Part shown: in pieces, positions 17,828 through 21,999 of the stretch | Layout: the number at the start of each line of letters is the position of its first letter | How positions within the stretch are numbered: the first letter of the stretch is position 1 | From: Anaerolineales bacterium | Lineage (GTDB): Bacteria; Chloroflexota; Anaerolineae; Anaerolineales; DRMV01 | NCBI GenBank assembly: GCA_027053355.1 | Contig: JALUDX010000135.1 | Location: 1-34,178, forward strand | Length of the DNA stretch: 34,178 bases | Reading direction: 5' to 3' | Program-made: the position numbers and the translations under genes | Notes under the pieces: model-generated | Databases searched by the model: none | Told to the model about the DNA's origin: nothing | The model's input: only the letters and a program-made list of their open reading frames with translations

Positions 17828-18505
17828 ATGCCCCGTCAAGTGTTAGAAAGCGAAATTCAGAACCTCAAAAATCAGATTTTGCGTTTAGGCGATATGGTGC
17901 GGCAGGCCATGTTGGACGCCATCGAAGCCCTCAAGCACCGCGCTACCAACCGCGCGCGGCAAATTATTGCTGCCGATCAAGCGATCAACGCGCTGCGCTT
18001 CGATATCGAAAAGGCTGCTTTGGTGGTCATCGCCACTCAACAACCCTTGGCGCACGATTTACGTTTTTTGGCTTCGGTGTTGGATATTGCTGGGGAATTG
18101 GAGCGCATGGGTGACTATGCGAAAGGGATAGCGAAAATCAACATCCTCATGGGCGACAAGCCTTTGCTCAAGCCCCTCATCGACCTCCCCCGCATGGCTA
18201 ACATCACCGCCGATATGCTCCAGGCCGCGCTGCAAGCCTTCGTCAACGACGACGCGGAAACCGCCGCTGCCATCCCCCGCCGCGACGATGAGGTAGACGG
18301 CCTCTACAACCAGATTTACCGCGAACTCATCACCTTCATGATTCAAGACCCCAAAACCATCGACCAGGCCAACTACCTGCTCTGGGCAGCCCACAACGTG
18401 GAGCGCATGGCCGACCGGGTGACCAACATCTGCGAACGCACCATTTTCACCGCCTCAGGCGAAATCGTAGAACTGGACACCGACGAGAACGGCAACGCGC
18501 GATAG
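17828..18505 (+). CDS. phoU: Phosphate signalling complex protein PhoU
   Basis: LRLGDMVRQAMLDAIEAL, ATQQPLAHDLRFLASVLDIAGELERMGDYAKGIAKI, AHNVERMADRVTNICERTIF. Confidence 0.95.
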   Translation: MPRQVLESEIQNLKNQILRLGDMVRQAMLDAIEALKHRATNRARQIIAADQAINALRFDIEKAALVVIATQQPLAHDLRFLASVLDIAGELERMGDYAKGIAKINILMGDKPLLKPLIDLPRMANITADMLQAALQAFVNDDAETAAAIPRRDDEVDGLYNQIYRELITFMIQDPKTIDQANYLLWAAHNVERMADRVTNICERTIFTASGEIVELDTDENGNAR

Positions 18506-18523
18506 AAAAAGGGGATGCGAGAT

Positions 18524-19303
18524 TTACCCCGCGCAGACTTCAGCCCAAAAGGAGCGCACCGCCTGGGCTACCATTTCAGGCTGTTCTAACATCACCATGT
18601 GCCCCGCGGCTTCTACGGTGACCAACCGGCTGCGGGGCAACTTCTCCCGCAGGAAAAACGCCGCGCTCAACGGCATCATCTTGTCCAGCACACCATGCAC
18701 GATCAACGCGGGCACGTCGATGGCGGGCAGGTCGGCACGCGCGTCGAACCGGTCGCAAGCCAAGAAGTCGTTGTGCACCACGGTGTGGCGGGTTTCCAAC
18801 ATCCGCCGTGCGGCCAGTTCCCGCAGGCGGGGCGACGCCTGGGGGGCAAAAGACCATTTGACGATGCTTTTCACCGCCGCGGGGAAGGCCGCTTCATGGG
18901 CTGTGCTTTCCAGCAGGCGAGGGTTGACCGGCAAGCGCGCTCCCGTTCCCACCAAACCCAGCGCAGCGACCTTTTCAGGCTGCTCGCGCACCAGCGCTAA
19001 CACGATTGCGCCGCCCATGCTGTGCCCCACCCACAGCGCAGGCGGGAGCCCCAACCCCTCGGCCCAAGCCGCGAGGCCGCGGGCATACTCTTCGATGCGC
19101 TGTGCGCCGACGCCCTCGCTGCGGCCATGGCCGGGCAAATCCACCGCCAGGGTGCGCACGCCGGGCAAACGGCGCAACGGGGGCGGCCAATGCAAATGAT
19201 TCCCGCCAGCGCCGTGCACCAACACCACGGGGCAATCCGCTCCGCCCACGGCGAGGCGCAAGTCAGCCTCGGTGTAATACAAACCACGCCATTGGGGCAT
19301 CAT
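18524..19303 (-). CDS. Alpha/beta hydrolase
   Basis: VVLVHGAGGNHLHW, AVDLPGHGRSEG, LWVGHSMGGAIVLAL (GHSMGG nucleophile elbow), PALIVHGVLDKMMPL, EAAGHMVMLEQPE. Confidence 0.92.
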   Translation of the reverse strand: MMPQWRGLYYTEADLRLAVGGADCPVVLVHGAGGNHLHWPPPLRRLPGVRTLAVDLPGHGRSEGVGAQRIEEYARGLAAWAEGLGLPPALWVGHSMGGAIVLALVREQPEKVAALGLVGTGARLPVNPRLLESTAHEAAFPAAVKSIVKWSFAPQASPRLRELAARRMLETRHTVVHNDFLACDRFDARADLPAIDVPALIVHGVLDKMMPLSAAFFLREKLPRSRLVTVEAAGHMVMLEQPEMVAQAVRSFWAEVCAG

Positions 19304-19365
19304 CTTCTCCTGGGGGAAAGAGGGAGCAACTGTTCGGCTTTTTAGGTCGCCAATCTGGGTTTTCT

Positions 19366-19533
19366 GGTAACTACCTGCCCTGCGCCGAAAACGAGGCTGA
19401 CAAGCAATTTCGTCTTCGCTCAGGGCGGCGGCTCAGCCCCCTCTCCTCTCCCAATGGGAGCGGAGAGGGGGCGCGCAGCAGGGGTAAAGTGAGGGCGAAA
19501 AGCCACTGCAGCGCTTCTGGGTAGGTAATTACG
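19366..19533. repeat. MITE/REP-like intergenic element with a nested hairpin
   Basis: Imperfect terminal inverted repeats GGTAACTACCTGCCC (19366-19380) / GGGTAGGTAATTACG (19519-19533), 12/15 complementary; internal hairpin GCCCCCTCTCCtCTCCCAATGGGAGcGGAGAGGGGGC at 19436-19472. Confidence 0.5.
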
Positions 19534-19565
19534 TTTTCTGTGGTTTCCCTGCCCAGGCTGAGCGG

Positions 19566-20210
19566 TCACCCGTCGGCGAGGGGGAACCACATCCGGCAGC
19601 GCCAGGCTGCAGCCTCGGTTCGTCCTTCTTCCCAACGGCCTTGCAGGCAATCTGCGAGGGCCTGCATTTCGGCTGCGCCCAACGCGGCGCGCGGTTGGTC
19701 AGGCAATTGCCCTTCCGCAACCAGGCCGATGATTTCCACCCCCGCTTCGACAAACCGCAGGCGCAACTGCGCTTCGCGCTCCGGCGCGGCCTCACGCAGG
19801 CGGGTAAGGATTTCTTCCGCAGCCCAGAAAAGTGCCCGCCGCCGCACCAGGGACAAATCGGCGGCAGGCAACGCGCTTTCCACGAGCACCTTGGTCTTTT
19901 GTCCATAAACCTCTTCGGTTTTTCGGGCCAACAAGGCAAGAGCGGCTTCCAGGCCGTCCTCTTCCAATACCGCGGGGTAAAGGAGATAGAGCAGGTAGCG
20001 AATCTCTGTCGAGGCCTGGTGCGCTAAATGCTCGAGGGCAGTTACTTCGGCTAACCCCTCTTTGAGGGAACGTTGGCAAAGCCGCCGCGCAATGCCCGCC
20101 CGCATGGCCAGTGCGGCCACGGTCTGCGTTAGCCCGTCGTGGAGGGCACGCGCCAATTTCGCGCGCGCCGCCATCTCCAGTCGCAGCGTGCAGGGCGCAG
20201 GTTCACCCAT
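19566..20210 (-). CDS. Stand-alone HisKA_3 (NarL-type histidine kinase) protein with degenerate ATPase region
   Basis: AARAKLARALHDGLTQTVAALAMRAGIARRL and STEIRYLLYLLYPAVLEEDGLEAAL match a HisKA_3 DHp domain; the C-terminal half lacks recognisable N, G1 and G2 boxes. Confidence 0.75.
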   Translation of the reverse strand: MGEPAPCTLRLEMAARAKLARALHDGLTQTVAALAMRAGIARRLCQRSLKEGLAEVTALEHLAHQASTEIRYLLYLLYPAVLEEDGLEAALALLARKTEEVYGQKTKVLVESALPAADLSLVRRRALFWAAEEILTRLREAAPEREAQLRLRFVEAGVEIIGLVAEGQLPDQPRAALGAAEMQALADCLQGRWEEGRTEAAAWRCRMWFPLADG

Positions 20211-21999
20211 TTTCCACCACCGGCATGAAAGCGAATTGGGTCACATCCACCAATCCCTTATCCGAAAGGCGCAGTTCGGGGATGACGACCAGCGCCATCA
20301 GCGCGAGTTGCATGTTGGGGTTCTTGATGCGGCAGCCGCAGGTGCGGAAGCCTTCCAGCACGGTGGCAGCCTTTTTCGCCACCACTTCGGCGCGCTCGGT
20401 GGACATCAGCCCCGCGATGGGCAGTTCCACCAAGCCGATGACCTGGCCGTCTTTCACCACTACCTGCCCGCCGCCCACCTCGGCGAGTTTGTTGGCCGCG
20501 ACGGCCATGCTTTCTTCGTCGGTGCCGACCACCAGCATGTGATGGCAGTCGTGCGCCACGGTGGAGGCCACCGCGCACTTGCCGCGGAAGCCAAAGCCGT
20601 GCACCAGGCCTACCTGCACCGTGCCCGTGGCGTGGTGGCGCTCTACCACCGCGGCTTTGGCAAGGCCCAGGTCGGCGTTGGGCTTCACTTCGCCGTCGGT
20701 GACGGGCACTTCCATCACCAGGTGCTTGGTGGGCGCTTGCCCTTCAATGATGCCGATGACGTGCGCCTTCGCCGTGCCGCTGGCTTTGGGCGCGGGCAGG
20801 CGGAAGTCGTTGGCGGTGAGGGGGCGCTTCAGGTGCACCGAGTTGCGCGCCCATTCGGGGTAAGGGTAGGTGGGCAGGTGGATCAGCAGGCTGCCGTCTT
20901 CGGCAATCAGGCGGCCTTTGGCAAATACCTTGTGCGCGTGGAAGTCGGCGATGTCGGGCACCAGCAGGATGTCGGCCCAGCGGCCCGGGGCAATCATGCC
21001 GATTTCGCGGCTGAGGCCGAAGTGCTCGGCGGTGTTGATGGTCATCATCTGGATGGCGGTCAGCGGCGGCAGCCCCTGGCTGACCGCGTGGCGCAGCACC
21101 CTGTCCATGTGTCCTTCGTTGACCAGGGTTTCGGCATGGCTGTCGTCGGTGCAGAGCAAAAAGCGGCGGGAATCCAGCCCCATTTCGGTAATGGCCTTGA
21201 CCTGCGGGGCGACATCCAGCCAGCCGGAGCCGTAGCGCAGCATGGCCTTCATCCCCTGGCGGACGCGGGCCACCGCGTCTTCCAGGCGGGTGCCTTCGTG
21301 GTCGTCTTCGGGGCCGCCGGCCACATAGCCGTGGAAGGGCAGGCCCAGGTCGGGGCTGGCGTAGTGCCCGCCGATGGTCTTGCCCGCGGCCGCGGTTTCG
21401 GCCATTTCCCGCAGCATTTTTTCGTCGCCGTTGAATACGCCGGGGAAGTTCATCATCTCGCCCAGGCCGATGATGCCTTCCCATTGCATGGCTTCGGCCA
21501 CGTCTTCGGGGGTGATGGTGCCGCCGGGGGTTTCCAGCCCTGGGGCCGAGGGCACGCACGAGGGCACCTGCACCCACACGTGGATGGGCTGCTGGCGGGC
21601 TTCGTCCACCATCAGGCGCACGCCCTTCAGGCCGAAGACGTTGGCGATTTCGTGGGGGTCAACGAACATGCCCGTGGTGCCGTGGGGGGCGACGGCGCGC
21701 ACGAATTCCGTCACCGTGACCATGCCCGATTCCACGTGCATGTGGCCGTCTAACAGGCCGGGCACTAAGTACATGCCTTGGGCGTCCACCACGGTGGTGT
21801 GTTCGCCGATGGTGTGGGAGGCGTCGGCGCCCACGAAGGCAATACGGCCATCGGCCACCGCGACGTCGGTGTGCGGGATGATTTCGCCGCTCTGCACGCT
21901 CACCCACTTGCCGTTACGGATGACCAGATCCGCGGGTTCGCGCCCCATGGCGACGGCGATGAGTTTTTGGCGGGTTCGATACCAGGCTTTGGCGTCCAT
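20203..21999 (-). CDS. ade: Adenine deaminase
   Basis: ADLVIRNGKWVSVQSGEI, LVPGLLDGHMHVESGMVTVTEFVRAVAPHGTTGMFVDPHEIANVFG, GHYASPDLGLPFHGYVAGGPEDDHEGT, FLLCTDDSHAETLVNEGHMDRVLRHAVSQGL, DCHHMLVVGTDEESMAVAANKLAEVGGG. Confidence 0.94.
   Translation of the reverse strand: MDAKAWYRTRQKLIAVAMGREPADLVIRNGKWVSVQSGEIIPHTDVAVADGRIAFVGADASHTIGEHTTVVDAQGMYLVPGLLDGHMHVESGMVTVTEFVRAVAPHGTTGMFVDPHEIANVFGLKGVRLMVDEARQQPIHVWVQVPSCVPSAPGLETPGGTITPEDVAEAMQWEGIIGLGEMMNFPGVFNGDEKMLREMAETAAAGKTIGGHYASPDLGLPFHGYVAGGPEDDHEGTRLEDAVARVRQGMKAMLRYGSGWLDVAPQVKAITEMGLDSRRFLLCTDDSHAETLVNEGHMDRVLRHAVSQGLPPLTAIQMMTINTAEHFGLSREIGMIAPGRWADILLVPDIADFHAHKVFAKGRLIAEDGSLLIHLPTYPYPEWARNSVHLKRPLTANDFRLPAPKASGTAKAHVIGIIEGQAPTKHLVMEVPVTDGEVKPNADLGLAKAAVVERHHATGTVQVGLVHGFGFRGKCAVASTVAHDCHHMLVVGTDEESMAVAANKLAEVGGGQVVVKDGQVIGLVELPIAGLMSTERAEVVAKKAATVLEGFRTCGCRIKNPNMQLALMALVVIPELRLSDKGLVDVTQFAFMPVVENG

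Follow-up and report, generated by a model that had tools for sequence, protein, structure and literature searches.

A truncated HisKA_3 protein beside the adenine deaminase gene of an Anaerolineales bacterium, probably a kinase-dead remnant of a membrane-anchored histidine kinase

Introduction

Several proteins related to histidine kinases have an altered or damaged ATP-binding domain. Spo0B of Bacillus has a degenerate ATPase domain. Its phosphotransfer takes place on a four-helix bundle formed by a dimer (PMC3433190). ChpT of Caulobacter has the DHp dimer fold, and its atypical CA fold, altered in the lid region, does not bind ATP (PMC3433190). The Sphingomonas phosphotransferase PhyT/PhyP is thought to derive from a histidine kinase via a degenerate ATPase domain (PMC5898713), and in Corynebacterium a CA-damaged, inactive pseudokinase variant of ChrS still promotes signalling, apparently together with a paralogous kinase (PMC9491836). 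ChpT, PhyT and the ChrS pseudokinase offer earlier examples of kinase-dead derivatives that have kept a role. The HisKA_3 kinase DesK is also relevant to this question, as its Gln193, one helical turn after His188, holds the catalytic water in position during dephosphorylation (PMC5231405).

Here we examine an open reading frame (ORF 19566-20210) in a stretch of 34,178 nt from an Anaerolineales bacterium, referred to in full as the window. A first-pass annotation of this DNA had proposed that the ORF could encode a HisKA_3-based phosphotransfer or phosphatase protein rather than a kinase. Its product resembles the Anaerolineales TM-GAF-HisKA_3-HATPase_c kinase (e.g., loci L008 and L115) over the whole of DHp and CA, in its downstream gene and in its placement within the family clade, but differs in having lost the TM and GAF regions, the N, G1 and G2 boxes and the lid. 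The DesK/NarX-type HisKA_3 kinases provide the best structural match, with H24-Q29 of the ORF corresponding to DesK His188-Gln193; unlike them, however, the ORF product would lack autokinase activity, judging by its motifs, and has neither a sensor nor an adjacent NarL-type regulator. ChpT is essential and belongs to a known phosphorelay, whereas the ORF occurs in one genome only, and Pfam finds no match in it to the histidine phosphotransferase family (ChpT). Spo0B models of Pfam and NCBIfam likewise gave no match, and in contrast to Spo0B the loss seen here is confined to a single lineage of a HisKA_3 kinase. PhyT/PhyP differ in carrying HRxxN rather than HisKA_3, a membrane anchor and a phyR locus, and the ChrS pseudokinase arose by a frameshift from a complete heme-responsive kinase during laboratory evolution.

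Domain Content and Motif State

The ORF lies on the minus strand at 19566..20210, begins with ATG and comprises 214 codons. Its start overlaps the 3' end of a complete adenine deaminase gene (ade, 598 aa, 20203..21999, minus strand) by 8 nt, and residues 1-9 at this junction (20184..20210, minus strand) have no clear counterpart in the intact kinase. HisKA_3 (PF07730) is the sole Pfam family above its cut-off, matching residues 15-80 (19971..20168, minus strand) with 44.7 bits and an E value of 2e-11 against a cut-off of 24. NCBIfam kinase models such as UhpB and MctS were matched far below their cut-offs, and a sequence search of solved structures returned DesK as a weak match. Within this HisKA_3/DHp region the motif HDGLTQ (20124-20141, minus strand) retains H24, D25 and Q29 in alignment with intact relatives; the Gln thus stands five residues after the His, and both H24 and Q29 are invariant among relatives.

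The remainder of the protein, residues 81-214 (19569..19970, minus strand), is a degenerate CA region whose HATPase-like fold is predicted but whose ATP residues are lost, and HATPase_c was not found in the ORF by Pfam even up to E 10. In alignment with intact relatives the former N box (residues 132-142; 19785..19817, minus strand) reads EEILTRLREAA in place of EEAVNNARKHA, leaving the N-box helix without Asn, and the former G1 box (residues 165-170; 19701..19718, minus strand) reads AEGQLP where intact kinases have DDGxGF, for instance DDGVGF, so that one Gly (G167) is kept and the Asp has become Ala. The ATP lid carries an 8-residue deletion, GxGT of G2 is lost (G200A, G202A, T203W) and the C-terminal tail is some 12 residues shorter than in intact relatives. 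Upstream of the HisKA_3 part the TM and GAF domains are missing. With the residues of N, G1 and G2 missing, we infer that the product cannot autophosphorylate. The base composition of the ORF follows a coding-like codon-position pattern (GC1 0.74, GC2 0.49, GC3 0.69), with a GC3 lower than the 0.79-0.85 of its neighbours. Neither a response regulator homolog nor, near the ORF, a phosphorelay gene was found within the window. The first-pass annotation had described a HisKA_3 protein that keeps its His and HDxxxQ, lacks the ATP-binding motifs and has no neighbouring response regulator gene, and in these respects it was correct.

An AlphaFold2 model of the 214-aa protein, computed with its relatives (pLDDT 81, pTM 0.71), shows an elongated hairpin for DHp and an alpha/beta fold for CA. 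An intact ortholog modelled as a control has two further helices, a short one in the lid and one at the C-terminus, both absent from the ORF model. When the latter was searched with Foldseek, cytoplasmic structures of DesK ranked first and ChpT (4fmt_A) appeared at rank 46 (E 2.4e-6, TM-score ~0.51), a comparison that pairs a predicted model with a fold search. TM-scores near 0.5 may partly reflect differing domain orientation.

Intact Kinase Relatives

Matches to the ORF at E <=1e-12 occur in 48 of 61 related genomes, its own included, and nearly all those outside its own genome lie in open frames of ~340-670 aa. One exception, in genome G025, is a 262-aa protein (L093) whose aligned part shows nothing unusual in the regions of the N box and G1. 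Members of the genus (G001-G005) encode a kinase of ~460-510 aa, and Pfam finds GAF, HisKA_3 and HATPase_c in the two genus kinases scanned (G005, G002); the hydrophobic N-terminus of the genus kinases was judged by eye to be a membrane anchor. This TM-GAF-HisKA_3-HATPase_c kinase, with intact ATP motifs, is present in relatives at the genus, family and order level. The homologs align with ORF residues 10-213, and the C-terminus of the ORF therefore corresponds to a whole HATPase domain.

Searching GTDB contigs with the ORF sequence alone returned no relatives, and a second, alignment-based scan of these contigs added 80 Anaerolineae loci, with a core extractable in 76. The N, G1 and G2 boxes are intact or conservatively varied in these 76 cores and in 29 order-level relatives, and a loss like that of the ORF was seen in none of them; the motif expression failed in 10/76 cores, each a mild variant (KKGT, ENGT, DEG, VKNA, etc.). 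The degenerate form of the kinase occurs in one genome only. A search of that genome, a metagenome-assembled genome in 215 contigs in which a gap is possible, revealed no separate full-length copy; the L008 kinase, used as query, matched the ORF itself best. The annotation had looked to orthologs for a conserved His with absent N and G boxes, but the orthologs examined have a normal HATPase domain, which is the pattern it had itself named as a sign of local decay.

Gene Order and Rearrangement

In G001-G005, G008 and G009 a same-strand alpha/beta hydrolase gene follows that of the kinase, an arrangement that recurs in 45/71 of the further Anaerolineae loci with room downstream under a strict distance test, and in several more of those loci the hydrolase open frame overlaps the end of the kinase. 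The window has the same order, with the ORF followed by the hydrolase ortholog (18524..19303, minus strand), the gene found after the intact kinase in most relatives. In several relatives the kinase-hydrolase pair is followed by rdgB, DUF177 and sigma factor genes, and in the genome studied here the rdgB-DUF177-sigma group lies on another contig without the pair, the contig ending 442 nt beyond rdgB. None of 29 relatives has a homolog of the ORF beside ade. This gene order, with the hydrolase next to the ORF, ade beside it and rdgB-DUF177-sigma elsewhere, identifies the ORF as the positional ortholog of the TM-GAF-HisKA_3-HATPase_c kinase, now beside ade and without its first half.

The gap between ORF and hydrolase contains a dispersed repeat (19351..19553) with the folding potential of a strong hairpin (z -4.0); the two relatives measured have a much shorter gap, of 54 nt (L051) and 22 nt (L056). 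The repeat, which is possibly MITE-like, is ~130-200 nt long and has ~40 copies in the genome, mostly 85-97% identical. A search for sigma-70-like promoters from 18500 to 20400 returned none.

Two further observations concern this neighbourhood. The ade product shares 98% identity with its counterpart in G003 and 97% with the one in G009, a member of another genus, unlike the hydrolase beside the ORF, which is only 63% (G003) and 53% (G009) identical; from these identities it is possible that ade has been exchanged between species. The pairing of an orphan TM-GAF-HisKA_3 kinase with an alpha/beta hydrolase is conserved across Anaerolineales (loci L098-L177), and in the flanks examined no response regulator gene adjoins the intact kinase orthologs.

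Tempo of Evolution and Residual Constraint

The ORF is 34-38% identical to the kinase cores of its genus, which are 75-91% identical among themselves, and by part the identity to genus kinases is 46-49% in DHp and 26-35% in CA. For the hydrolase the corresponding values are 63-66% to genus members against 69-82% among them. In a phylogenetic tree the ORF falls among the kinases of its family (8-row clade, SH-aLRT 96) on a very long branch; its end branch measures 4.16 changes per column against 0.03-0.47 for family kinases, a roughly ten-fold difference. The hydrolase end branch (0.62) compares with 0.11-0.63 for family hydrolases, and since this branch is normal and that of the ORF is long, the acceleration is specific to the kinase remnant. 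Second-position differences of the ORF are strongly raised, and third positions are near saturation. That the ORF might instead be an ancient paralog was judged unlikely, with both the gene order and its placement in the family clade against this.

Simulations were used to gauge how much of the ORF would survive neutral drift. Drift from the genus kinases to the divergence of the ORF introduced ~4 stops on average, and the probability of an open frame was 7e-3 to 1e-6 across settings; it was <=0.0003 with indels at the final divergence and 0.007 for a change in no more than 40% of residues. In simulations constrained to an open frame, with total identity matched, DHp regions scored 26 +/- 11.5 bits against an order-wide profile compared with 71 for the ORF (0/200), and with DHp identity itself matched they reached an HMM score of 56 +/- 9 compared with 74.3 (6/200 reach it). 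The CA region of the ORF was preserved no better than in simulated drift. All these simulation results hinge on the assumed mutation bias and indel rate. Among order-wide invariant columns the ORF keeps 27/37 in DHp and 20/46 in CA, the 10 lost DHp invariants including D22A, P27L and R78Y. A Fisher test of invariant against variable DHp columns, to which we give little weight, returned p 0.0014 with genus-level ancestors and p 0.075 with family-wide ones. These comparisons suggest that the DHp half of the ORF is under residual constraint, the effect at matched identity being modest.

A DegS-Like Protein in the Same Lineage

Most of the 61 related genomes also encode a soluble DegS-like HisKA_3 protein of ~355 aa, which consists of a coiled coil, HDGPAQ and a CA domain, and an intact NarL-type regulator gene lies directly upstream of its gene. 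The copy in the genome studied here lies on contig C160 (G000:C160:10963-12042; L004, also L208:4464-5534 on the minus strand), with orthologs at L179-L182. Its N box is intact in most genomes, but in the genus and in G009 5/5 readable proteins lack both the N-box Asn and the second Gly of G1, and the same two residues were lost independently in family f2 (3/3; L201, L203, L205). His and Asp are kept in all of these N-box-less proteins, and HATPase_c is still scored by Pfam in most of them, weakly. Species of the genus clade are 51-64% identical to the G000 copy. In the G024 ortholog (L204) the N-box Asn has gone in a further, independent event (LLGFSHRQGQA), and there G1 retains its glycines. 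On sequence grounds, the DegS-like protein is a candidate conserved pseudokinase, better supported than ORF 19566-20210, and together with its regulator it offers the stronger lead for the protein class that the annotation had proposed, as the same question can be tested there with better evidence.

Discussion

That the ORF originates as a rearranged, degenerate local ortholog of a membrane-anchored GAF-HisKA_3-HATPase_c kinase is, in our view, very likely. As gene order shows, a rearrangement joined the kinase gene's 3' part and the hydrolase gene to the end of ade, with TM and GAF gone. The ORF is probably translated with ade, translational coupling being likely because its start overlaps the ade stop. 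The CA part would then have drifted freely while the DHp part held better than drift predicts, and it is this retention that leads us to take a residual ATP-independent role as the most likely outcome. The product may form a DHp homodimer, or a heterodimer with another HisKA_3 kinase of the genome, and such a dimer could bind a NarL-type response regulator and remove its phosphate via Gln29; alternatively, His24 could be phosphorylated in trans. Taken as a whole, the reading of a kinase-dead kinase remnant with a residual ATP-independent role is one we hold to be probable, if not strongly so. As to its parts, the chance that the protein keeps a function of any kind is slightly better than even, a phosphatase or partner role as its exact activity is doubtful, and a recently born ATP-independent, DHp-centred regulator of one species, cotranslated with ade and acting on a NarL-type regulator or a sister kinase, is a still more speculative picture which we consider improbable.

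Several observations weigh against the favoured reading. The degenerate form comes from one genome, too few to demonstrate its conservation; the ORF has two broken ends and a repeat at the 3' one, as would a gene being lost; ten DHp invariants have gone, GC3 is lowered and second-position differences are raised; and the DHp constraint test falls to p 0.075 with family-wide ancestral columns. The broken ends, the restriction to one genome, the very long branch, the lowered GC3 and the lost DHp invariants would equally suit a decaying, non-functional 3' half of a kinase gene, its frame open by chance and perhaps passively expressed with ade. We regard such decay as a serious possibility of somewhat less than even likelihood, since 214 codons remain open where drift leaves a mean of ~4 stops, the DHp half is kept better than in simulated drift and the codon-position pattern is still that of coding sequence. 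Membership of a dedicated family of HisKA_3-derived histidine phosphotransferases, like Spo0B or ChpT, would fit the kept His and HDxxxQ, a CA fold predicted without its ATP residues and the presence of ChpT among the structural matches. However, it is mostly refuted and highly improbable, given that no ortholog among the 76 further cores and 29 order-level relatives shares these losses, that nothing similar lies beside ade in 29 relatives and that the window holds no phosphorelay gene nearby. The CA fold retained in the model might also have meant an active kinase whose ATP site is intact but shifted, but the N-box helix has no Asn, the G1 Asp is Ala, G2 is absent, the lid helix present in the model of the intact ortholog is missing and Pfam finds no HATPase, leaving this reading practically no chance.

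Of the earlier proposal of a phosphotransfer or phosphatase protein, the loss of ATP residues and the retention of the phospho-acceptor region stand, while the existence of a family does not. An ATP-independent role fits the statistical preference for preservation of the DHp half, but not as that of a stand-alone family, since the ORF is a truncated ortholog in a single genome. It is a one-genome oddity and not a new class of signalling protein. If the remnant does not work, it is a case of ordinary gene decay. If it does, it would illustrate the route by which kinase-dead proteins of the phosphotransfer or phosphatase type, ChpT among them, come about: rearrangement removes domains, and the CA part then drifts while DHp is retained.
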